DNA of 38,080 bases. Origin: a virus. Shown piece by piece: positions 4,036-38,080 of this stretch (positions are counted from its first letter, which is position 1; every line of letters begins with the position of its first letter). Location: IMG/VR virus record IMGVR_UViG_3300042304_000524, positions 1-38,080 of that record; one strand, written 5' to 3'. The position numbers and the translations under genes were made by a program. Below the pieces are notes generated by a model. The model ran no database searches and was not told where the DNA came from. It saw nothing but the letters and a program-made list of their open reading frames with translations.

Positions 4036-6090
4036 ATGGCAAAACTCAGTAAAGCCGAACGCCTGAAAAGATACCGCAATCGTTTGAATCATGCGAAACG
4101 TTGGCGTGAAGAACAGGGTTACGACCAGACGTGGAATCGGATGCTGGACCTGTACAAAGGCAAGCATTTCCCTCCAGGTATGGATGACGAAGATCGCATT
4201 GCGATCAATATTGCGTTTTCTACTATCAACGTAATCTTTCCTTCAATTACGGTGAATCATCCTGGCATTGAGGTTATGGCTAATCGGGTTGAGGACGAGG
4301 ATCGTGCGATCATTTCGCAGGCCGTCATCAACTATTGGTGGCGTCACTATGATTTTCGTGCGCCGTTCCGCCGAGCCGCCAAAGACTTCCTTACTGTCGG
4401 TCATGGTTGGATCAAAGTTGGTTACAAGTTTGAGGAAAAGTCTGCTGAACTGAGTTATGACGAAAAGTCTGCTCAAGAGCAGGAGATGATTGCTCAAGCG
4501 GACAGTTATGCAATGTTGAATCCTGATATGGCGGCGGAAACGCCGACTGATGAGGAAATCTCTGCAAACATTCCTGCCACAAAATCTGTTGTTGTTGAAG
4601 ATCGTCCCACGTTGGAACGTGTCAGCCCGTTCGACATGTACGTTGACCCTGAAGCGACGTGCATGGACGATGCCCGTTGGATTGCCCAACGCATTATCCG
4701 TCCGATTGAAGATGTTCGCAGTGATCCACGGTACAACTACAAGGCACGTCGATCCACGAAGGCTGATGCTGTCATTTCTTCTGACTGGTTGAGTCCAGAT
4801 CAGAAACGCAAAATGGATGGTGACATTGATCGTGTCACCGTCTGGGAATATTACGATCTAGTTCACGACTGCATGTGCGTGTTCGCTGAAGGCGCAGATG
4901 ACTTTCTGATTGATCCTCGCAGTATGCCCTATGCGTTTGGGCATCCCTATGAGTTTATTGCGAACTATGACGTTCCTGATGAGTTTTACCCAATCGGTGA
5001 TTTGGAGATGGTTGAGGCTCCTCAGCAGGAACTCAACAAGACTCGTTCACAGATGATGAACCATCGTAAAAAGTATGGTCGCAAATATCTGTATCGTGCG
5101 TCTGCATTGGGCCCTGAGGGTCGTCAAGGCTTGGAGTCCAACGAGGACAACATTGCTATTGAGGTTATTGACGACAATCAGCCGTTGCAGGATGTGATTA
5201 TGCCTGTACCGATCACGCCAATGGCGGGGGATCTGTACCAGTACAGCCAAATCATTGAAGCCGACATGGACAAAGTTTCGGGTGTAAACGAATATGCCCG
5301 AGGTTCAACTCCTGAGGTGCGTCGTACCGCCACTGAAGCAGCAATGATTCAGGATGCTTCTAACGCCAGGTCTACGGACAAGTTGGCGTTGATTGAAATT
5401 GCGATTGGCAGTATCGCCCGCAAGGTGTTGCAACTTGCTCAGCAGTACATGACAGGTCAGCAGGCTGCACGCATTGTTGGGGCTGAAGGTCAGCAGTTCT
5501 GGTTTGAATACAACCATGAGGACATTGAAGGCGAATTCGATTTTGTTGTAGAAGGCGGTTCAACTCAGCCGAACAACGAAACGCAACGTCGCCAGCAGGC
5601 TGTAGCAATGATGAACTCACTGGCACCGTTGGTGGGAACAGTCATTGACCCTGCCGCATTGGCTAAACATGTGTTGCAACACGGTTTCGGTGTCAAGTCT
5701 CCTGGCAAGTTCCTTATGCAACAGCAACCCCCCGCTCCTGTGCCTGGTGATCCAAACGCAATGCCACCTCAGGGCGGTGAACCGCCGATGCAAAGTAACC
5801 CTGGTGTTGGTGTTGATGCGCCACAAGCGAATCCGCAAGACATTTTGGCTGCACAGCAGGCAGGTGGAATGGACGCTGCTGGTTTAGGTGGTCCTCAGTC
5901 GCCAATGCCGATGGGCGGTGGTGGAATGCAAATGGCTATGCCTATGGGTGGTGACCCGATGAGTGCAGGACCGATGCCAACGCCTATGGCTCAGGGTGGT
6001 GCACCGACTGGTTTAGAGGATGTTCCTCTTGAAGTGTTGATGCAGTTGCAACAGCAAATGGCTAGTCAGCAACAGCAACAGCCCGTCTAG
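4036..6090 (+). CDS. Portal protein (P22-like)
   Basis: About 684 residues. The portal is the dodecameric ring at the packaging vertex through which DNA enters and leaves. The N-terminal and central parts resemble podoviral portals (WNRMLDLYKGKHFPPG; PFRRAAKDFLTVGHGWIKVG; YEFIANYDVPDEFYPIGD; NKTRSQMMNHRKKYGRKYLY). The C-terminal about 120 residues are low complexity, rich in Met, Gln, Pro and Gly. ATG 4036 is preferred; a GTG at 4000 in the same frame is possible. The adjacent terminase, scaffold and capsid genes support the assignment. Confidence 0.85.
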   Translation: MAKLSKAERLKRYRNRLNHAKRWREEQGYDQTWNRMLDLYKGKHFPPGMDDEDRIAINIAFSTINVIFPSITVNHPGIEVMANRVEDEDRAIISQAVINYWWRHYDFRAPFRRAAKDFLTVGHGWIKVGYKFEEKSAELSYDEKSAQEQEMIAQADSYAMLNPDMAAETPTDEEISANIPATKSVVVEDRPTLERVSPFDMYVDPEATCMDDARWIAQRIIRPIEDVRSDPRYNYKARRSTKADAVISSDWLSPDQKRKMDGDIDRVTVWEYYDLVHDCMCVFAEGADDFLIDPRSMPYAFGHPYEFIANYDVPDEFYPIGDLEMVEAPQQELNKTRSQMMNHRKKYGRKYLYRASALGPEGRQGLESNEDNIAIEVIDDNQPLQDVIMPVPITPMAGDLYQYSQIIEADMDKVSGVNEYARGSTPEVRRTATEAAMIQDASNARSTDKLALIEIAIGSIARKVLQLAQQYMTGQQAARIVGAEGQQFWFEYNHEDIEGEFDFVVEGGSTQPNNETQRRQQAVAMMNSLAPLVGTVIDPAALAKHVLQHGFGVKSPGKFLMQQQPPAPVPGDPNAMPPQGGEPPMQSNPGVGVDAPQANPQDILAAQQAGGMDAAGLGGPQSPMPMGGGGMQMAMPMGGDPMSAGPMPTPMAQGGAPTGLEDVPLEVLMQLQQQMASQQQQQPV

Positions 6091-29391: not shown

Positions 29392-29411
29392 GACGTGTGT
29401 CAGCACACGTC
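29392..29411 (-). terminator. Perfect hairpin between nuclease and SSB-like gene region
   Basis: GACGTGTG, loop CTGA, CACACGTC in the minus-strand RNA, eight perfect pairs beginning at the stop codon of the nuclease gene. There is no U-run. It lies in the only sizeable gap (78 bases) of the replication operon and could be a terminator, an RNase site or a dyad operator for the genes that follow. Confidence 0.45.
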
Positions 29412-30207
29412 ACAAATGCTTTCCTTTGCAATCGTCCCAGCACGTCGCCCACTTCGGGGAACACAGAAACGAGTTGTCAAACAAAGGCCACGAATCAAGG
29501 TCAGCACGAATCAACTTGGCAATCGAAGTCAACTGCTCAATCAGCCATGTGAAATGACCGTCGCCACGTTTCGTGGACAAAACCAAATGTTCTTGCTTCT
29601 GCTTGTTCATAATGATGAAGTCAAACGACGCCGCCTCGTAATCCCATTCGGGATCACTGAGCATCAGCCCAAGAAAATAGAATGTTGGTTGAATCTTTTT
29701 TTCAACCTCATGCTGTTTCCACGCATGAAATCCGTTAGCGGTTTTCCAGTCGATGATGTTGCCAAGTTCGTCAATCATGTCGATTGACCCCTTGATCTTC
29801 AGTTTCCCGTACTCAGTGTCAGCAACCTGAACATCAAACGGTTCTTCAATACCCACTGGGCTTGCCAGTGATGGGTACACCTCGTTCGCCCATGTCCAAT
29901 ACACACGCTGCACCGTGGCAATCAACGTGTCTTTCGTTTTCACTTGGACAAACTCAAACTCAGGTAACGACATCAGTCGTTCCAACTCGGCGTAAGCGGC
30001 ATCCTCACCTTCAGTGAGACTGCCTAAACCGTTGAGAACAAACTCCGCTCCCGTGTGCAAAGCGTTGCCTGCTGCTGTCGCATCAGTCTCCTTGCGTGGC
30101 AAACGTTCCTTCATCTCAAGGAACGCTTGTTGCGGGCAGTTTTGGAATGTGTTTGTCCATGACTGAGAGAACGTGATGGTGTCGTCTGTTACGTTGATCC
30201 CTGGCAT
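29410..30207 (-). CDS. Cas4/RecB-like PD-(D/E)XK nuclease
   Basis: A 265-residue nuclease. It has the RecB/Cas4 order: NCPQQAF near the N-terminus, AAGNALHTGAEFVL with the motif His, KIKGSIDMID with the catalytic Asp, and GNIIDWKTANG (D and K of the D-x-K motif). The C-terminus has Cys spaced C-x6-C-x3-C (LCSPKWATCWDDC), which with the N-terminal Cys could hold a 4Fe-4S cluster. The likely role is DNA end processing in recombination. ATG 30207 overlaps the stop of the tiny membrane gene upstream. Confidence 0.8.
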   Translation of the reverse strand: MPGINVTDDTITFSQSWTNTFQNCPQQAFLEMKERLPRKETDATAAGNALHTGAEFVLNGLGSLTEGEDAAYAELERLMSLPEFEFVQVKTKDTLIATVQRVYWTWANEVYPSLASPVGIEEPFDVQVADTEYGKLKIKGSIDMIDELGNIIDWKTANGFHAWKQHEVEKKIQPTFYFLGLMLSDPEWDYEAASFDFIIMNKQKQEHLVLSTKRGDGHFTWLIEQLTSIAKLIRADLDSWPLFDNSFLCSPKWATCWDDCKGKHL

Positions 30208-30299
30208 TAGAAGATCACCCAGCACACAAAGGTGGTGCACAGGGTAACAATGCCGATGACCGTTGCTAGTGCAAGAAAGTCTTCAGTGTCACTATTCAT
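30207..30299 (-). CDS. Tiny membrane protein (30 aa)
   Basis: A 30-residue protein with seven polar residues followed by one membrane span (ALATVIGIVTLCTTFVCWVI). It begins in the stop of the upstream HTH gene (ATGA) and ends in the start of the nuclease gene (TAATG), so it is precisely fitted between two real genes. No family is recognised. It could anchor or regulate a host membrane process. Confidence 0.6.
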   Translation of the reverse strand: MNSDTEDFLALATVIGIVTLCTTFVCWVIF

Positions 30300-30970
30300 G
30301 ACGCCTGCTTTCCATAGCGATGCCACCACTGCGAGATCGTGTCAGTTGAAACATCGTGACCATCAGCCATTAGTGCCAGACGAATCTGCACGTTCGACTT
30401 TCCGTCATGACGCATTCGCAGCGCACGTTCACGAAGATCCAACGGTTTTGCTGTCAGGTGCGGAAGTTCCAGTCCCAACATTTTCCGTAGCGACAATGCC
30501 TGCGACTTTGACAACCCTGTTGCCTGCATCACCGACGTGAGGGGCAGTTCACGACGCATCAACGCTTCAGCATCAAGCCGACGTTGAACGCCTGTGTCAT
30601 CCAATGTTTGATCGCAGTACAACCAGCGGACAATTTCTGTTGGTGTAGAAGAAACCAACAACGCTGCTTGTGAAATTGTCAGCCCTGTTTGAACAATGTG
30701 ACGCACGACCGAACGCACTTTGGCACGATCCTGAGGTGTGTTTGAGTTCAACGCAACCTGCTGCTGATACAACGCTTCCAGATACAACAACAGGGTCCGA
30801 GATTCCCGACTTAGCCCTGTTTCAAAGGCTTTTTGGTCGGTTTCAACAACTTCATCCCACCAAGCAAATAGCGAAGAAGCATTGTTCAAACTGCGAGGGA
30901 TAGCCCATCTATCAGGGTTATCACTTACCAAATCCTTGCCTTGCAAGATCACATCTTCAAAAGATTCCAT
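30296..30970 (-). CDS. Multi-HTH DNA-binding protein
   Basis: A 224-residue protein with at least three helix-turn-helix-like segments: QTGLTISQAALLVSSTPTEI, LTSVMQATGLSKSQALSLRK and a C-terminal resolvase/transposase-like one (LRMRHDGKSNVQIRLALMAD). The first gene of the replication operon, it starts after a 312-base non-coding region with dyads, so it may regulate that operon or act at an origin. GGGAG lies seven bases before ATG 30970, inside a hairpin. No catalytic domain is visible. Confidence 0.65.
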   Translation of the reverse strand: MESFEDVILQGKDLVSDNPDRWAIPRSLNNASSLFAWWDEVVETDQKAFETGLSRESRTLLLYLEALYQQQVALNSNTPQDRAKVRSVVRHIVQTGLTISQAALLVSSTPTEIVRWLYCDQTLDDTGVQRRLDAEALMRRELPLTSVMQATGLSKSQALSLRKMLGLELPHLTAKPLDLRERALRMRHDGKSNVQIRLALMADGHDVSTDTISQWWHRYGKQAS

Positions 30971-31282: not shown

Positions 31283-31642
31283 TCAGCGTTTACGTTTCTT
31301 GAGTCGCTCGATTTCTTCGTAAGCGATCTCCAACCTTGCTTGCAGCCGACCGATTTCTTGATTGGCTTCAGCAAGTTGTTCCATCACGTCACGCGTATGC
31401 ACTGGTTTTGTTTTTGTTGCACGCGCTGGGGTGTAACCCGCATCTTTGATGTAGGTGTAAATCGTTGGCCTGCTTACGCCAGTAGACGCTTCTATCAACG
31501 CAACCTTGTCGCCCGCCAAATAGCGTTCAATGATCTGTTGTCTCACTGACTCGGGATGGGATTGAGTCACGATGCGACTGTGCTGTTCTTCGACATACAC
31601 AGACTGTAGAGGTTGGGTGTGACTTATGCTTGAGTCAGCCAT
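31283..31642 (-). CDS. HTH protein with C-terminal coiled coil
   Basis: A 119-residue protein overlapping the integrase stop by 19 bases. Residues about 35-70 form a resolvase-type HTH (RQQIIERYLAGDKVALIEAS, then TGVSRPTIYTYI). A basic linker is followed by a coiled coil (EQLAEANQEIGRLQARLEIA) and KKRKR at the end. Its coupling to integrase makes a recombination directionality factor or integration regulator plausible; a plain transcription factor is equally possible. Confidence 0.65.
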   Translation of the reverse strand: MADSSISHTQPLQSVYVEEQHSRIVTQSHPESVRQQIIERYLAGDKVALIEASTGVSRPTIYTYIKDAGYTPARATKTKPVHTRDVMEQLAEANQEIGRLQARLEIAYEEIERLKKRKR

Positions 31643-32622
31643 TCGTTGAGTTCCCTGCCCCCCGCCTGGACATACCTCATCGTCGTGTTCATGTTCGTGT
31701 GATTCATCAACCGACTGACCAAAGCCAGCGGTAACCCTGCTCGCAGCAGGTTCGTGGCACACGAATGACGAAGCGAGTGAACGTCATGGCAGGGGATACC
31801 CGCCTTGTTGCACCACTGCTTCATCTTCTTGTTGAACTGCGATTCATAGATATTCCATTTCAACAATGGATCATCAAGTGACCTATCGGTAACAAGATCC
31901 CGTAACGCAGTTACAAACAACTGCGAGTCGGGAAGCAAGTGCGGAAGTTTCTTTGCATACACACCAACCATGTCCATCCACGGCAAATCCATTCGCATCC
32001 CACCCTTGCGTTGGAAATCAACAATGGTCTGAGGATTCACGTTTCTCACCAGCAGCGAATACACCTCCGCCTTCCTTAGCCCACAAAAAAAGCCCAAGCC
32101 CAGTGCAGCACGATCCGAGGGCACCAAATCCAGCGCCCACACTGCTTGGAAATGGTCGTCATTCCACGGTTTTGGTTGGACGTTGTGGACGGTGGGGCCA
32201 TGCAGGTGCTTAGCAATGTTCCCACTGGGGGTGATATTGGTCTCATAAGCCCACTGGAAATGTGACCTGAGGATCGCAGCATCCAGTTTCTGAGTCCCAG
32301 GAGCGCCCTGATTGCCGTAGCAGCGCCTCTGACGTGGACGCTTCAGGAACGCCATCATCTGCTCCACATTCACTGTGTAAATCGACTGAGGAGACACAAA
32401 CTCTACGAACGCTTCAATGACAGGAACATACGTTTCAATCGTCCGCTCGCTACGCAAACGATCATCTCGTAAATAACATTCCCATTTACGAACGCTGATT
32501 AGATCCCCCGACAAACCCCCAAAATCTTCAGTAAAAGACTGGGGTTTTTGACCGAACGGGTATTCCGAACCAAAGTCATGACCCCAGTTGGATGTTTCGA
32601 TTCTGTTTGGTATTCCTTGCAT
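31624..32622 (-). CDS. int: Tyrosine-family integrase
   Basis: A 332-residue tyrosine recombinase that integrates phage DNA at attB. An N-terminal SAM-like core-binding domain (residues 40-130; WECYLRDDRLRSERTIETYV) is followed by a complete catalytic domain: R183 (FFCGLRKAEVYSLL), K206, H282 and R285 (VHSLRHSCATNLL), H308 (LMNHTNMNTT) and nucleophile Y317 (MRYVQAG). All six catalytic positions are present. GGGAG lies seven bases before ATG 32622; longer starts run through the attP. The temperate lifestyle follows from this gene and attP. Confidence 0.95.
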   Translation of the reverse strand: MQGIPNRIETSNWGHDFGSEYPFGQKPQSFTEDFGGLSGDLISVRKWECYLRDDRLRSERTIETYVPVIEAFVEFVSPQSIYTVNVEQMMAFLKRPRQRRCYGNQGAPGTQKLDAAILRSHFQWAYETNITPSGNIAKHLHGPTVHNVQPKPWNDDHFQAVWALDLVPSDRAALGLGFFCGLRKAEVYSLLVRNVNPQTIVDFQRKGGMRMDLPWMDMVGVYAKKLPHLLPDSQLFVTALRDLVTDRSLDDPLLKWNIYESQFNKKMKQWCNKAGIPCHDVHSLRHSCATNLLRAGLPLALVSRLMNHTNMNTTMRYVQAGGRELNEWLTQA

Positions 32623-32866: not shown

Positions 32867-33337
32867 CTAGCCCCTAGAATCGTCTGTACGGGCCTGCCAC
32901 TGATCCTGTGGGGCAATGCCCCCAGATCCTCCCAGCCACACCAGTAGGGCCTCCAAGGATCGTTGGGTCAGTCCTTGCGTGAGTTTGCCTCGGACCATGC
33001 GTCTGATCGACTGCTCACTGATACCTGTCTCATCCCCTACTCGCTCATAAGGGATGTTTCTGCGGACCCGTTCAGACTCAAACAGTGTCCCGAGATTCCG
33101 TAACACTTCCAAACAGTTCGTAATGTCCCCAGTGTCGAACTGGCGTGTCAAAGGCTGAGTCTGGTGGGCGATGGCTCCCCGATACGGATTCGGGATCGCC
33201 AGTTTCGCTGCTGCCTGCTGCTCCACACGAACCTGATGTTTCGGACGATCACCGCCCGAACAGATACCGCACAGACAATCGTTTCGTCCGCCACACTTGA
33301 CGTGGCGACCTTCCCAGCACAGATCACAAGTAACCAT
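32867..33337 (-). CDS. Zinc-binding N-terminus plus HTH regulator (immunity repressor candidate)
   Basis: A 156-residue protein. Residues 4-27 hold CDLCWEGRHVKCGGRNDCLC followed by another Cys, a likely zinc site. The C-terminal half has an XRE-like HTH (RRNIPYERVGDETGISEQSI, then RRMVRGKLTQGLTQRSLEAL). Located between the accessory genes and attP/integrase, it is the best candidate for an immunity or lysogeny regulator, although it is transcribed in the same direction as early genes and is not divergent as usual. The start lies four bases after the previous stop. Confidence 0.65.
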   Translation of the reverse strand: MVTCDLCWEGRHVKCGGRNDCLCGICSGGDRPKHQVRVEQQAAAKLAIPNPYRGAIAHQTQPLTRQFDTGDITNCLEVLRNLGTLFESERVRRNIPYERVGDETGISEQSIRRMVRGKLTQGLTQRSLEALLVWLGGSGGIAPQDQWQARTDDSRG

Positions 33338-33340
33338 CTC

Positions 33341-33565
33341 TTAGGCCACTTCCTGATCGGCGCAGTCCATCAACGCAACTGCCAGCCATTGCGCTTGGGG
33401 TGCTTGCAGTTCCAGAGCGATCCGAAACTGGTTTGGTGGGGGAGTGACCATCGTCAGCGTCACCCATCCGTTTCGATTGTTGACCCAACAGTGCGACTCG
33501 GCGTTCCCTGTTTGTCGGTCACGATCTTTGTCAACACTGACGTACACGCCTTGTAGACGTTGCAT
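33341..33565 (-). CDS. Small hypothetical protein after a TCACCTACC leader
   Basis: A 74-residue protein starting MQRLQGVYVSVDKDRDRQTG and ending with a helical segment (AQWLAVALMDCADQEVA). ATG 33565 is preferred over ATG 33577 because GGAG lies six bases before 33565; the 33577 codon itself overlaps that GGAG. The leader contains TCACCTACC at 33584-33592. No family is recognised; the layout resembles small beta-sheet-plus-helix phage proteins. Confidence 0.6.
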   Translation of the reverse strand: MQRLQGVYVSVDKDRDRQTGNAESHCWVNNRNGWVTLTMVTPPPNQFRIALELQAPQAQWLAVALMDCADQEVA

Positions 33566-33603
33566 TCGATACTCCATTGTTGTGGTAGGTGAAAGATAGA
33601 AAG

Positions 33604-33626
33604 CGGGTTGACCCTGTGTCAGCCCG
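33604..33626 (-). terminator. Rho-independent terminator after the small HTH gene
   Basis: In the RNA, CGGG-TGAC pairs with GTCA-CCCG with one inner mismatch, followed by CTTTCTATCTTT. It starts at the base after the stop codon of the gene 33627-33899 and ends 11 bases before the TCACCTACC motif of the next gene. Confidence 0.7.
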
Positions 33627-33899
33627 TTATGACTTGGCAATCATGTCGATACGAGCCCGACTGAGACCCAGTTCCGCTGCGATCTCCGCCAACGTGAAAC
33701 CCTCCATCCGCAACTGACGGACAGCAGCAACACGAACAGCAGACACACGCGGAATCAACTCAGACTGAATCGAATCCAACAGCCAAGACATAGCCAACGC
33801 CCTCAGCATCGGATCATCCATAGTCGCAATCCAGTCATCGCAAACCTGCTGCAACTGAGCCTGCAACTTCATGTTCGTAACCGAATGAGTTGTTCTCAC
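33627..33899 (-). CDS. Small HTH protein
   Basis: A 90-residue protein with an HTH at its C-terminus (EGFTLAEIAAELGLSRARID). The rest is helical (VAAVRQLRMEGF). GTG 33899 overlaps the stop of the tiny membrane gene (GTGA) and has GAGGAG eight bases before it. It is likely a transcription regulator of the early or immunity region. It ends directly at a terminator. Confidence 0.65.
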   Translation of the reverse strand: MRTTHSVTNMKLQAQLQQVCDDWIATMDDPMLRALAMSWLLDSIQSELIPRVSAVRVAAVRQLRMEGFTLAEIAAELGLSRARIDMIAKS

Positions 33900-33982
33900 G
33901 GATTCTTCTCCTCGTCACGAATACCTTTGTAGCCCAGCCACACCAGTAGGGCGATGACCAGCAAACTTGCTATTGGACCCAT
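33896..33982 (-). CDS. Tiny membrane protein (28 aa)
   Basis: A 28-residue protein with one membrane span (IASLLVIALLVWLGY) and a charged tail (KGIRDEEKNP). Its stop overlaps the GTG start of the HTH gene, and the HTH ribosome binding site lies within its last codons, so the two are coupled. The start lies four bases after the previous tiny gene. Real by arrangement; function unknown. Confidence 0.6.
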   Translation of the reverse strand: MGPIASLLVIALLVWLGYKGIRDEEKNP

Positions 33983-33986
33983 AATG

Positions 33987-34067
33987 TCACGCCCACTTCG
34001 ATAGCCAGTAAAGCACCACGCAAACCACTGGTGCGATGAACAGCATTGTCAATCCGTTGATAACCAT
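33987..34067 (-). CDS. Tiny membrane protein (26 aa)
   Basis: A 26-residue protein, almost entirely one membrane span (MLFIAPVVCVVLYWLS). GGAG lies nine bases before ATG 34067, after the variant leader motif ACACCTACC (34087-34095). The frame is open upstream to a GTG close after TCACCTACC at 34134-34142, which would give a 47-residue form. It is the first gene of a three-gene set ending with an HTH protein. Confidence 0.6.
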   Translation of the reverse strand: MVINGLTMLFIAPVVCVVLYWLSKWA

Positions 34068-34148
34068 TGTATTTCTCTCCATTTTTGGTAGGTGTTTGTT
34101 TGTGTTGCGATAGAATGTGTGTTGCTTCACTTTGGTAGGTGAGCAACC

Positions 34149-34178
34149 GAACGGCCCCAGTTCACGCTGGGGTCGTTC
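34149..34178 (-). terminator. Hairpin after the YubB-like gene
   Basis: GAACG-CCCCAG, loop of six, CTGGGG-CGTTC with one mismatch: eleven pairs, 28 bases after the stop of the gene 34206-34796. No U-run follows. It is followed seven bases later by TCACCTACC. It is likely a terminator or a processing hairpin. Confidence 0.55.
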
Positions 34179-34205
34179 ACTATTTACGGCTAGGGCCTGG
34201 GATTG

Positions 34206-34796
34206 TTACCCCGCCATCTCTAACTGTGATTCAGTCAGCCGACGAAACGCTTCGGCCTCGCAATGATCGAAACACTGTCCGACCAACTCTGCACTGTTTT
34301 CGTCATCGTCGCCAGTGAACTGCGGATAGTTCGGATCATCAGAATTGACCGAATAGTTGCCATGCTTTCCGCTACGAAACTCGGCGTATCCATAAAAGTT
34401 TCCGCACTCGTCCTCGTAACTGATTGAGAACTCCAGTCGGGGGAACATTGCGCTAATGGCACTTAGCCCTTCGATGGCTGGTCCCCATGCTGTCCAGAAA
34501 CGAACTGACAGTTGTGCGGTTCCATCAGGGGTGACATCCATAGGTCCGTCGATCTCGGTATCTACGTCACCCCACTTGCAACCCCAGTTGTCCAAACACC
34601 ACTGGTAACCGCTGTCGCTGTAGGCACGTCCGATGGACACTCCGTTGTTGCCGATGATCTCTTTACCCTGAAGATTCTCGGGGAATGGGATCAACGCAGG
34701 GATAAACGCCTTATGGGGTTCGATTGCGTCTTGGAACTGTTGCACGTCATCGGCTAGTCCGATGACAAATAGGTTTGTGTAGCAGTGATTAGGCAT
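34206..34796 (-). CDS. YubB/Api92-like ferredoxin-like domain protein
   Basis: A 196-residue protein. It starts MPNHCYTNLFVIG and has FIPALIPFPENLQ, YQWCLDNWGCKWGDVD, FWTAWGPAIEGL and LEFSISYEDECGNFYGY, the order and spacing of the YubB/Api92 (DUF1281-like) family found on phages and plasmids: MPNxC start, NWGtKWD core, TAWsPP and E-x-G-x-x-F-x-G. Molecular function of the family is unknown. The leader carries TCACCTACC and AGGAG, both inside the 3' end of the upstream gene. Confidence 0.75.
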   Translation of the reverse strand: MPNHCYTNLFVIGLADDVQQFQDAIEPHKAFIPALIPFPENLQGKEIIGNNGVSIGRAYSDSGYQWCLDNWGCKWGDVDTEIDGPMDVTPDGTAQLSVRFWTAWGPAIEGLSAISAMFPRLEFSISYEDECGNFYGYAEFRSGKHGNYSVNSDDPNYPQFTGDDDENSAELVGQCFDHCEAEAFRRLTESQLEMAG

Positions 34797-35022
34797 TGTT
34801 ATTGCTCCTTTGTGGTAGGTGATTGTTCCCATATAAAAGGGTTTTGGTAACGGTGTGATGGAACTCATTGTTTCGCATTCCCAACAACAAATCATTCGCC
34901 ATCGCAATCTTGTTGTGCCAACAATCATCCGTTGCTTCCCAATCCGATAGTTCACACTCGCAAGGCTGATCTTCCATAACGGAAAGCAGAAGGTTTCTGG
35001 CATCTCTTAGTTCGTCACTCAT
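34789..35022 (-). CDS. Small hypothetical early protein
   Basis: A 77-residue protein (MSDELRDARNLLLSVMED at the start; a CECELSDWEATDDCW segment with three Cys). The start overlaps the upstream stop (ATGA). Its last 11 or so codons contain the TCACCTACC motif and ribosome binding site of the next gene, and its stop overlaps that gene by eight bases, so the downstream signals are embedded in coding sequence. No family is recognised. Confidence 0.6.
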   Translation of the reverse strand: MSDELRDARNLLLSVMEDQPCECELSDWEATDDCWHNKIAMANDLLLGMRNNEFHHTVTKTLLYGNNHLPQRSNNNA

Positions 35023-35537
35023 GCCGACACCTCGTCGCAATCGTGAATCTGGGAATGCAACTCAGACACGATCATTGCCAGATCGACATTGACAGGATGA
35101 AGCATCCCGATGCACGAAGAACCAACCTCATGCCATCCGCCGAACTCGCATTGACGCTCCAATACCATCACGCCACTCAGGTATCCGAAACTGAGAATGT
35201 TCACCAGATCCCGACGCAACTCGGTAAGTAACGCATCGTTACCAACCGCATCGACGGGAGGTTGCCACCAATACACATAGCCACGATCATCACGGACCTT
35301 GCGAGCGAAACCATCAAACCCCTCGGGACGTTCTGAATGTCCAAACCATCCGCCCCGAGAACATTCGGCAACTTTGCCAATCCAGTCCTCATCGTCACGA
35401 ACATCTGACCACTCATCAGCCTGCAACGTCACAACAACACGCTGAGAACCATCGCCAAGCAAATAGGTGGCACGTTCCTGATTGCGTTCCAGATCCGCCA
35501 CTAGCGAATCCATGACGTACTGCTCCAGATCATTCAT
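35019..35537 (-). CDS. Hypothetical early protein
   Basis: A 172-residue acidic protein. The middle part is rich in Trp and Gly with basic-aromatic patches (CSRGGWFGHSERPEGFDGFA; GYVYWWQPPVDAVGNDALL), and the C-terminal part is mixed alpha/beta (YLSGVMVLERQCEFGGWHEV). It does not match a family I know. It is coupled by ATGA to both neighbours and so is part of a three-gene unit driven from the promoter at 35852-35880. Confidence 0.6.
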   Translation of the reverse strand: MNDLEQYVMDSLVADLERNQERATYLLGDGSQRVVVTLQADEWSDVRDDEDWIGKVAECSRGGWFGHSERPEGFDGFARKVRDDRGYVYWWQPPVDAVGNDALLTELRRDLVNILSFGYLSGVMVLERQCEFGGWHEVGSSCIGMLHPVNVDLAMIVSELHSQIHDCDEVSA

Positions 35538-35788
35538 GCCGACACCGCCGATACCGCTGAAACGTGAATCGGATTGTCATCGCATCGGGACACGACAATC
35601 TTCACCGCATCATCGCCCAAACCTATACGCCAGACAGTGTGATTACCGTTTGTATGTTCCACAACTGCCAGACCACACAACGCCAGCCCACGATTCACTG
35701 CAATCGCAAACTTTGTGTGCTCGGGATAATGATCTTCAGGTTTCTCAGTAAGAAAGTGTTCGATTGTCTTGCTATGCCAGTTATTCAT
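35534..35788 (-). CDS. Small hypothetical early protein
   Basis: An 84-residue protein (PEDHYPEHTKFAIAVNRGLA; VVEHTNGNHTVWRIGLGDDA) with an alternating beta pattern in its second half and a repeated SAVSAVSA C-terminus. AGGAG is seven bases before ATG 35788. It is the first gene after promoter 35852-35880 and leader motif 35804-35812. No family is recognised. Confidence 0.6.
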   Translation of the reverse strand: MNNWHSKTIEHFLTEKPEDHYPEHTKFAIAVNRGLALCGLAVVEHTNGNHTVWRIGLGDDAVKIVVSRCDDNPIHVSAVSAVSA

Positions 35789-35813
35789 TGCATTGCTCCT
35801 ATTGGTAGGTGAT

Positions 35814-35880
35814 GGGAGCGGGCCACGATGGCCCGATCCCGATTAGTTGTAACTGTAACAGAATCTAGTGGTGTTGTCAA
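35814..35880 (-). promoter_or_regulatory. Early promoter with leader hairpin
   Basis: Minus strand: TTGACA (35880-35875), 17-base spacer, TACAGT (35857-35852), a good housekeeping-type promoter. Downstream, before the TCACCTACC motif (35812-35804), lies a hairpin at 35814-35840 (CGGGCCA, loop TCG, TGGCCCG, extended by GGGA/TCCC). The hairpin would be in the transcript leader and could attenuate it or protect its end. Confidence 0.7.
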
Positions 35881-35894
35881 GTGTCTACAGACAG

Positions 35895-36218
35895 TTATTC
35901 GGAAAGTATCGCAAGAACCTCAGTCTGCTCAATCGCGAACACGGTGAATCCTCGTCGGGGCTTGCCCGAAACTGTCTCGGAACCGTCCTCACGTTTCGTA
36001 ATCGTCGGCAACAAACACGATGTCCCACGCTCACCCTTGCGGACCATACGGCCCGCGTTCTTCCATTGCACAAACGTCGCAAACTGACCTGCGGTCCATT
36101 CGTGTTCGTTCATCATCTCAATCAACCGCGACGCGTTCCCCTTCAAGAACTCACGCCCCGTAATCGGATTATGAGGCCATTGCACTGTCCTCGGATCAAC
36201 AACTATCTCAATACTCAT
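35895..36218 (-). CDS. Stand-alone ArdC N-terminal-like domain (anti-restriction candidate)
   Basis: A 107-residue protein matching the pattern of the ArdC N-terminal domain: PHNPITGREFLKGNASRLIE, then FATFVQWKNAGRMVRKGERG, then PRRGFTVFAIEQTEV, compared with the NPxTGxxYxGxN, Q-x-x-x-xGxxVRKGEKGT and FTVFNxEQ signature. In ArdC this domain binds ssDNA; the metallopeptidase domain is absent here. An early, promoter-proximal place suits protection of incoming DNA. ATG 36218 is preferred to ATG 36224, which lies too close to AGGAG. Confidence 0.7.
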   Translation of the reverse strand: MSIEIVVDPRTVQWPHNPITGREFLKGNASRLIEMMNEHEWTAGQFATFVQWKNAGRMVRKGERGTSCLLPTITKREDGSETVSGKPRRGFTVFAIEQTEVLAILSE

Positions 36219-36267
36219 TCTCATACTCCTGTTGGTAGGTGAATCTGATTAGTTGTACCTGTCGCCA

Positions 36268-36513
36268 TTAGGCGAACACGTCACCGATTGAAAGTTTCTC
36301 CACCATTGCATCCCAATCCGATGAGCCACGGCCCAAACGGACGTGATCGACAAACCCCCGAGAGTCCTCCACTAGCGCGTGGTGTTCCCCATAGCGTCCG
36401 ATCCAAACCCCATCGGTTTCCATGTCTCCCGCGCACTCGTCGGCAACGTGGCGAAGATCAAGCCAATAGGCGAACGGTGTCGAATACTTGTGAGTCTTGT
36501 AGTTCTCTCTCAT
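36268..36513 (-). CDS. Small hypothetical early protein
   Basis: An 81-residue protein (KYSTPFAYWLDLRHVADECA; WIGRYGEHHALVEDSRGFVD). The leader has TCACCTACC (36531-36539) and AGGAG nine bases before ATG 36513. The mixture of aromatic and acidic residues is similar in style to neighbouring small early genes. No family is recognised. Confidence 0.6.
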   Translation of the reverse strand: MRENYKTHKYSTPFAYWLDLRHVADECAGDMETDGVWIGRYGEHHALVEDSRGFVDHVRLGRGSSDWDAMVEKLSIGDVFA

Positions 36514-36545
36514 TGTCCTGCTCCTGTTGTGGTAGGTGAATTGCT

Positions 36546-36764
36546 CTAGCGGTAGTGCCAGTAATCGGAATCGGCAGGAATGCGGCTTTCGGCGTCATCG
36601 GAATGACTGGCCCAAAGTGCCCCCAACTCGTTCGATAGTTCGGCGTACTCCTTCCAATCGCGCTTAGTGACGCAACGCTCAAGCCGACGCAACATTTCCC
36701 GCGTGTACGTCATGTCCCTACGCATCGTCCCAATCGTGAAGGATGTTTCGTTGTTTCTGCCCAT
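36546..36764 (-). CDS. Small helical early protein
   Basis: A 72-residue protein, probably two helices (TREMLRRLERCVTKRDWKEY; AELSNELGALWASHSDDAES). AAGGAG precedes ATG 36764 and TCACCTACC lies at 36781-36789. The helical region resembles that of the protein at 37435-37620 (both have an LGA-x-WA element), so the two may be distant paralogues. No family is recognised. Confidence 0.6.
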   Translation of the reverse strand: MGRNNETSFTIGTMRRDMTYTREMLRRLERCVTKRDWKEYAELSNELGALWASHSDDAESRIPADSDYWHYR

Positions 36765-36853
36765 CGTCTGCACTCCTTGTGGTAGGTGAATCGGTACCCA
36801 ATCGGCACCACACAACACGCCGCGCGTGCTCTGCGCTACTGACTGAGAGGCAT

Positions 36854-36885
36854 GAACGGACCGGGACCCTCGTCCCGATCCGTTC
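36854..36885 (-). terminator. Hairpin after the first acidic early gene
   Basis: GAACGGA and TCCGTTC arms with an inner GGGAC/GTCCC stem and a four-base loop, 12 bases after the stop of the gene 36897-37295. No U-run. A probable terminator or processing hairpin. Confidence 0.55.
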
Positions 36886-36896
36886 CCACTGTTGCT

Positions 36897-37295
36897 TTAG
36901 TCGTCGTCCTCGTCGCCCTCGTCCTCGTCGCGCTCTGCCTCTAGCGCATAGATCAGACGCTCGGCCAGTGTGCAAAGAATCCACCCGACTGCCTCGGTCA
37001 TGTCAGTCGGGAGCGGTCCGAGTTCCTTGGCGATCTCCTCGGAGAACTGCCACCCCTGAAGGTCAGTAAATACCTGCCAACGGTCCCCCGTGTAGATCGG
37101 GACGGCCCCGTCTGCTGCTTGGTGGATTGCCTCGTCTAAGTCGGTGCCGTATTCGATGGCCTCGTCTCGTTCGTAATCAAGCCAACCGCGCGCAACCTGC
37201 TCAAGCCATTCGGCCCCTGCGCTCGTGCTGCTTTCCATGCTCGCATCAATCATGTTTCCCAAGCGGTAGGGGGTGTACTTGTTCTTCGTTTCCAT
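36897..37295 (-). CDS. Acidic early protein
   Basis: A 132-residue acidic protein with tyrosine-rich N-terminus (ETKNKYTPYRLGNMI), a central alpha/beta part (VPIYTGDRWQVFTDLQGWQF) and a very acidic tail (ERDEDEGDEDDD). ATG 37295 is chosen because AGGAG and TCACCTACC precede it; the open frame extends upstream without signals. Acidic early proteins can be inhibitors of host DNA-binding enzymes, but nothing specific is seen here. Confidence 0.6.
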   Translation of the reverse strand: METKNKYTPYRLGNMIDASMESSTSAGAEWLEQVARGWLDYERDEAIEYGTDLDEAIHQAADGAVPIYTGDRWQVFTDLQGWQFSEEIAKELGPLPTDMTEAVGWILCTLAERLIYALEAERDEDEGDEDDD

Positions 37296-37330
37296 TGTTT
37301 GTTTCTCCTGTTTGGTAGGTGATACTAGGG

Positions 37331-37359
37331 ATTGTGACACACTGCTTAGATGTTGTCTA
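37331..37359 (-). promoter_or_regulatory. Early promoter
   Basis: Minus strand: TAGACA (37359-37354), 17-base spacer, CACAAT (37336-37331). The start of transcription would fall close to the TCACCTACC motif at 37322-37314, as at the promoter for the rightmost gene. Confidence 0.5.
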
Positions 37360-37389
37360 GTACCTATTGACAAGCGCCGATAGACACAA

Positions 37390-37420
37390 GGAAACCCACC
37401 CACTAGAGCGGGCTTCCCAA
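37390..37420 (-). terminator. Terminator after the rightmost early gene
   Basis: In the RNA, GCCCGC, loop TCTA, GTGGGT followed by GGGTTTCCTTG. It begins about 15 bases after the stop of the gene 37435-37620, before the next promoter. Pairing includes G-U pairs, so strength is moderate. Confidence 0.55.
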
Positions 37421-37434
37421 TGCTGACCGACTCC

Positions 37435-37620
37435 CTAGCGATTGCGGGAAACTGCGACAAGATCGCGGGCAAGGTCTCGCAACTCCCGAGCGATTGCCGC
37501 GGCCTCTGCTCTGCGTCCCTCGGTCATCAGTCGGGCCCACTTCGCCCCAAGTTCTGAAACGTACACGCTCTCACGTTCCCAAGAGTTCAGGGCCAGTCGG
37601 TATTCATTCTGCGTTGTCAT
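37435..37620 (-). CDS. Small helical early protein, first gene of the early block
   Basis: A 61-residue helical, Arg/Ala/Glu-rich protein (SWERESVYVSELGAKWARLM; RRAEAAAIARELRDLARDLV). AGGAG lies eight bases before ATG 37620, and TCACCTACC at 37637-37645. It is read from the best promoter in the window, next to a Crp/GlxR-like site, so it is probably the first protein made after infection. Its weak likeness to the protein at 36546-36764 suggests a shared origin. Confidence 0.65.
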   Translation of the reverse strand: MTTQNEYRLALNSWERESVYVSELGAKWARLMTEGRRAEAAAIARELRDLARDLVAVSRNR

Positions 37621-37652
37621 TGTCGTGCTCCTGTTCGGTAGGTGATGAAATC

Positions 37653-37681
37653 AGTATCCCAGAATTCGCAGCAGTTGTCAA
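37653..37681 (-). promoter_or_regulatory. Main early promoter
   Basis: Minus strand: TTGACA (37681-37676), exactly 17 bases, GATACT (37658-37653). Predicted initiation is around 37646, at the edge of the TCACCTACC motif. A palindromic Crp/GlxR-like site lies just upstream. Confidence 0.8.
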
Positions 37682-37953: not shown

Positions 37954-38080
37954 GGGGGGGTGGGGGCGCCGTTGTTTATATATATTGCACCGTAGCCAAT
38001 GTGTGAACTTTTTAGAACCAGGCGTCCTGAGCGGGGGCAGCCAGTTTCTGCTGCAAGTCAGTGTTTGGGCAAAAAGAATG
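37954..38080. repeat. Terminal direct repeat, right copy (circular contig overlap)
   Basis: Exact copy of bases 1-127. It carries the G-run, the TTTATATATATT stretch and the sequence that continues into the leader of the late block. Joining the ends gives one uninterrupted non-coding region between the divergent early and late blocks. Confidence 0.9.

Follow-up and report, generated by a model that had tools for sequence, protein, structure and literature searches.

Short sequences repeated before several genes of one replicon have been described in a number of mobile genomes. Cluster K mycobacteriophages carry 11-19 copies of SAS/ESAS elements (SAS, start-associated sequence), whose function was unknown at their description in 2011 and for which a part in translation was suspected (PMC3203893). 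The PeSLs of T4-like phages are repeated intergenic regulatory sequences of a plastic early region with reported gene shuffling (Arbiol 2010; Comeau 2014; to the extent that PMC4503421, which cites them, describes it), and in plasmids of the pLS20 family EGeRS1 and EGeRS2 are conserved upstream of several variable operons, ardC anti-restriction genes included, within a mosaic gene content (PMC8708921). Stoperators of Cluster A phages are 13-bp sites, repressor-bound and spread genome-wide without a fixed spacing to start codons (PMC9283540), and phage module boundary sequences (PMC3029335) and morons exemplify the joining of non-homologous genes by short shared sequence. Here we describe an element that resembles each of these in part: the 9-nt sequence TCACCTACC, which recurs on the minus strand within 33584-37645 of a viral stretch of 38,080 nucleotides (IMG/VR record IMGVR_UViG_3300042304_000524, positions 1 to 38,080; hereafter the window, meaning this whole stretch). 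We regard it as an evenly balanced proposition that the element belongs to a start-associated leader which doubles as the left-hand joint when cassettes are exchanged.

The window contains nine exact copies of the motif and one variant (ACACCTACC, 34087-34095), and no further exact copy elsewhere in its 38,080 bases; dinucleotide shuffles gave a mean of 0.18 and a maximum of two exact copies, and none of 100 shuffles reached nine. The recount agrees with an earlier note on this DNA, which had reported ten copies, nine of them exact, in a 4-kb region. The ten start sites given there come down to nine start codons, the copy at 34134-34142 and the variant lying in one leader, the former 47 nt upstream of the latter, in a double arrangement that is also present in both close relatives. 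The copies stand before ribosome binding sites, as had been claimed, except for the one at 34134-34142, which has none of its own.

Each leader is laid out as TCACCTACC, 3-8 nt, GGAG, 6-9 nt and ATG, about 27 nt overall, and in 21 distinct leaders from the window and two relatives the first base of the motif lies 24-28 nt before the start codon. Compared in pairs, these leaders have an identity of 0.96 across the motif, 0.93 across GGAG, 0.62 across the spacer that separates the two and 0.45 from GGAG to ATG; in the nine bases upstream of the motif it is 0.31, near background, and conservation thus starts sharply at the motif. Because the 9-mer has resisted drift like a Shine-Dalgarno (SD) core while the flanks of the leader have drifted, it is probably kept by selection. 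Its sole constant neighbour is the start codon: some copies have a promoter and others none, and what precedes them may be a stop codon or a terminator-like hairpin. Because the constant neighbour is not a promoter, we favour an action within the mRNA leader when translation starts. TCACCTACC would then form the 5' part of a standard gene-start leader common to a row of small, early accessory units, the 9-mer might act in ribosome loading or in binding a regulator of early translation, and coding sequences would be exchanged with the leader as their left joint. An RNA element for translation control, as raised in the earlier note, is compatible with the constant distance to the start codon.

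Exchange at the leader is suggested by two close relatives, G003 (38,542 bp; portal 97% identical), with six exact motif copies and further variants, and G001, a 9,931-bp fragment with nine exact copies and one variant; distant relatives with portals 72% or 48% identical had neither such a leader nor any other repeated leader 9-mer. The ArdC N-terminal-domain, 26-aa and 74-aa genes occur in all three phages and share the motif along with the gene, so that relatives with the same genes retain the motif, the absence of which the earlier note would have counted against its proposal. Elsewhere, homology between the genomes covers the intergenic sequence and the leader and ends at the start codon, and unrelated genes follow; promoters, hairpins and leaders persist and the coding sequences behind them change. 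In the first slot the window has the 61-aa gene, a hairpin, a second promoter, a leader and the ocr-like gene. In G001 the ocr-like gene directly follows the first promoter and leader, with exactly the unit of leader, 61-aa gene, hairpin and second promoter missing, and in G003 the slot holds ArdA (L231, 18000-18578, minus strand; PF07275, 1.1e-24). Behind the leftmost early promoter, unrelated predicted anti-restriction proteins have been exchanged in place, ArdA in one phage versus the ocr-like protein in two. In the slots of the 72-aa and 81-aa genes, the sequence upstream of a G001 leader matches that upstream of the G003 72-aa gene (96/112) and the gene behind this G001 leader is homologous to the one that follows in G003 (36% at the amino acid level), as if one between-leader unit were missing or added. 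At motif copy 4, G003 retains the upstream sequence and the leader before a different gene. In the window the leader at 35804-35812 is followed by an additional 84-aa gene (35534-35788) ahead of the 172-aa gene, G001 has the 172-aa homologue directly, and the gene immediately after this leader is different in each of the three phages.

We counted the ends of homology blocks of at least 100 nt and obtained the expectation from shifted leader positions (permutation). Block 3' ends fall within leaders in 12 of 15 cases versus 2.9 expected (P=0.0003), a value that is indicative, as the three pairwise comparisons have genomes in common and are not independent. This dependence is one of several points that weigh against a leader with both a translational and a joining role. 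Only three of the 15 block 5' ends lie within leaders (P=0.55), homology mostly resuming after stop codons and before the next leader, and because these ends are not enriched the right joint probably lies elsewhere than the leader. About 27 nt of imperfect identity would offer little homology for recombination, and the sole hint of recombination functions in the phage is an exonuclease-like gene at 29410-30240. Copying of the leader alone would also keep the spacing constant, with no role in translation needed; local folding of the leaders gave no strong structure, and the confinement to the early accessory region would suit a repressor site as well. The earlier note had asked whether cassettes exchange at the motif in related phages and had proposed recombination joints for their swapping: gene replacement and unit gain or loss in G001 and G003 support this for the left joint, which would lie at the leader, but not for the right joint.

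The repressor site is the main rival, and we consider it unlikely, if still to be reckoned with: a phage repressor, for example the 156-aa helix-turn-helix (HTH) protein encoded at 32867-33337, would bind a stoperator-like DNA site with the putative target GGTAGGTGA and block initiation or elongation for each accessory unit in lysogeny. Further HTH proteins are encoded at 33627-33899 and 31283-31762. The phage is probably temperate, given its tyrosine integrase, the candidate HTH protein is found only in motif-bearing phages, and the motif is asymmetric, multi-copy, uniformly oriented with transcription and placed in short intergenic spaces like the L5-type stoperators of Cluster A (PMC9283540). 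However, stoperators do not need the constant spacing to the start codon, all copies are confined to 33.6-37.6 kb, with none among, e.g., the replication or structural genes, and the 9-mer is shorter than the 13-bp stoperator. That the 9-mer is a functionless relic, its leader having been copied along with every cassette through recombination or duplication, would fit the mosaic region and the likeness of the leaders across motif, SD and start codon, but we judge it improbable, as functionless copies should drift together and here the spacers have diverged to the identities given above while the 9-mer has been kept like GGAG.

Even less probable, in our opinion, is an operator or initial-transcribed-sequence element overlapping transcription initiation. 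The earlier note had placed the motif at the predicted transcript 5' end, and of four promoter-like sites on the same strand only two clearly agree with this, namely P1 and the promoter of the ocr-like gene (-10 boxes ending at 37653 and 37331, 7-8 nt before the motif; P1 of G001 is similar). The copy at 36531, 6 nt past a stop codon, and that at 33584, directly behind a terminator-like hairpin, have no fitting promoter, and that at 35804 has its promoter some 40 nt upstream; an operator overlapping initiation is therefore not supported for all copies. To an anti-SD mimic, in which TCACCT/CCTACC would pair with the local AGGAG and hide the ribosome-binding site until opened, we assign the smallest probability, and regard it as very unlikely. 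The motif does resemble the 16S tail CACCTCC plus one extra A, and the pairing of TCACCT with AGG mentioned in the earlier note appears as a CCU/AGG stem in several leaders; the stem is weak, however, with only 3 bp in single leaders, it is absent from UGGAG leaders, and the motif is mostly unpaired in predicted ensembles.

Compared with the systems described before, the favoured start-associated leader comes close to the Cluster K SAS in being a short asymmetric repeat of (for SAS, nearly) one orientation at a near-fixed short distance before the start codons of non-structural genes, conserved in relatives and found before genes of different families. The SAS, however, is a 13-bp sequence (GGGATAGGAGCCC) that contains the SD and lies 3-7 bp from the start, whereas here a different, separate 9-mer lies 3-8 nt upstream of GGAG; no 17-bp inverted repeat as in ESAS was seen beside the motif, and in the present phages genes can be seen to be exchanged at the element. 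The shuffling of modules at the element between relatives, as PMC4503421 reports it for PeSLs, is found here at the left joint only. In contrast to the PeSLs as presented there, the repeated part is a 5' leader with SD and not a promoter plus stem-loop, hairpins and promoters differ between units, and the phage is probably temperate and podovirus-like instead of a T4-like myovirus. As with EGeRS, predicted anti-restriction genes (ocr-like, ArdC-N and ArdA) stand behind the leaders, but EGeRS1 is a structured region of 420-750 bp and EGeRS2 a promoter with repressor operators, whereas here 9 nt and an SD are conserved and nothing upstream of them. Like morons, the units may have their own promoter and terminator-like hairpin; unlike morons and boundary sequences, one sequence carrying a ribosome-binding site stands at nine gene starts in a single genome. 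SAS, PeSL and EGeRS thus each agree with the leader in some respects and differ from it in a defining one, and we do not file the leader as a member of any of them.

Judged by gene content and position, from which we take the genes to be early, and by the protein families, from which activity is predicted, the leader array looks like an early anti-restriction island. A more specific proposal, which we put forward tentatively and think somewhat unlikely, is that of a plug-in socket, in which a phage-specific 9-nt tag would license early translation of anti-restriction genes and also provide their recombination joint. If this is true, new anti-defence genes of this phage group could be recognised by the tag. 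The ORFs (open reading frames) without known function behind the leader (61, 72, 81, 84, 172 and 196 aa, with more of them in the relatives) become anti-defence candidates. How phages quickly reload anti-defence genes and yet keep their expression is a practical open question, and one design can be read here: promoter, hairpin and leader stay, and the coding sequence from leader to stop is exchanged, e.g., ocr-like replaced by ArdA. Being small and open to mutation, the leader is also a useful example of the start-associated sequences, elements whose role was left open when the SAS was described.

Table 1. Coordinates in the window of the motif copies, promoter-like sites, hairpins and genes.
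Feature	Position	Strand	Remarks
Motif copy 1, exact	37637..37645	-	Leader of 61-aa ORF 37435-37620; 7 nt past -10 GATACT
Motif copy 2, exact	37314..37322	-	Leader of ocr-like gene; 8 nt past -10 CACAAT
Motif copy 3, exact	36781..36789	-	Leader of 72-aa ORF 36546-36764; in G001 another gene behind the same upstream stretch
Motif copy 4, exact	36531..36539	-	Leader of 81-aa ORF 36268-36513; 6 nt past preceding stop codon
Motif copy 5, exact	36234..36242	-	Leader of ArdC N-terminal-domain gene; gene and leader retained in G003 and G001
Motif copy 6, exact	35804..35812	-	Leader of multi-gene unit 35534-35788, 35019-35537, 34789-35022
Motif copy 7, exact	34814..34822	-	Leader of DUF1281/Api92-like gene; in G003 upstream and leader retained, other gene
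Motif copy 8a, exact	34134..34142	-	Without own ribosome-binding site
Motif copy 8b, ACACCTACC	34087..34095	-	Leader of 26-aa ORF 33987-34067
Motif copy 9, exact	33584..33592	-	Leader of 74-aa ORF 33341-33565
Promoter-like site P1, TTGACA-17-GATACT	37653..37681	-	TTGACA region common to G001 and G003
Promoter, TTGACA-17-TACAGT	35880-35852	-	About 40 nt upstream of motif copy 6, hairpin in between
Promoter-like match	33622-33593	-	Abuts motif copy 9; overlaps terminator-like hairpin
Intergenic hairpin, strong, terminator-like	37385..37425	-	-24.2 kcal/mol, z -5.3
Intergenic hairpin, strong	36850..36890	-	-28.6 kcal/mol, z -6.1
Hairpin between promoter and motif copy 6	35813..35850	-	-21.2 kcal/mol, z -4.4
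Hairpin before motif copy 8a	34143..34190	-	-19.3 kcal/mol in the window, -22.1 in G003
Terminator-like hairpin, then pyrimidine-rich tail	33593..33630	-	-11.3 kcal/mol, z -2.6; directly before motif copy 9
61-aa ORF	37435..37620	-	No family match; unit absent in G001, where P1 leads directly into the ocr-like gene
Ocr-like anti-restriction protein, acidic, 132 aa	36897..37295	-	Weak family match: phrog_2568 3.3e-6, phrog_4239 2e-11; net charge -24
107-aa protein, ArdC N-terminal domain only	35895..36218	-	PF08401 3.8e-11; phrog_7245
196-aa protein, DUF1281_C (Api92-like) domain	34206..34796	-	PF18406 1.8e-11
156-aa protein, Cys-rich N-terminus, weak HTH match	32867..33337	-	Candidate regulator; found only in motif-bearing phages

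The coordinates of the features are collected in Table 1. The ocr-like protein matched the Pfam ocr family (PF08684) at 0.006, under the curated cutoff, and its fold prediction was unusable (mean pLDDT 42). The ArdC N-terminal domain stands alone, without the remainder of ArdC, in all three phages, and the other ORFs borne by leaders had no family match. In the hairpin before motif copy 8a the stem is altered on both sides between the window and G003, with pairing preserved. The window is probably a complete circularised genome, because it ends in a direct terminal repeat of 127 bases (1-127 and 37954-38080); a repeat of 127 bases is also present in G003 and G017 and is probably the assembly overlap of a circular genome. 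The window codes for an SU10/P22-like portal, a terminase, an AEP primase, a DnaB helicase, RusA, an exonuclease-like protein and the tyrosine integrase, and the assignment of 30296-30970 as an annealing protein was rejected for want of family support. A search for the host found neither a relative of the capsid protein among genome contigs nor a tRNA, and BLAST of the motif region against known phages gave no match.

Beyond the close relatives, the idea of a general phage element was rejected, because in viral contigs TCACCTACCA followed by CAGGAG and ATG occurred in 13 stretches versus 36 for the dinucleotide-identical control TACCTCACCA. A genome search gave 60 scattered single matches, and a search for more members by promoter plus motif pattern and by conserved early proteins returned the same few phages only. 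Two unrelated phages, G041 (five leaders) and G046 (five to six leaders), have CACCTACCA before start codons; both were retrieved by the motif and are leads only. In G041 (38 kb; L264:16800-19600 and 4474-4500), the five leaders carry CACCTACCAC and share the upstream element AGTCGTCT, one of them being on the opposite strand, and in G046 (L113, 110 kb, 68% GC) several CACCTACCA leaders are preceded by GCTAGCAC. In the Arthrobacter phages Emotion and VroomVroom, three leaders contain CACCTACC, which is likewise a lead only, since the leaders of these phages are generally A/C-rich and the match may reflect composition. In these two phages and in DrManhattan (L393, L287 and L392), GTTTACAC directly follows a TAGACT -10-like box before many genes, A/C-rich leaders coming next, and has the appearance of a common operator placed where transcription begins.

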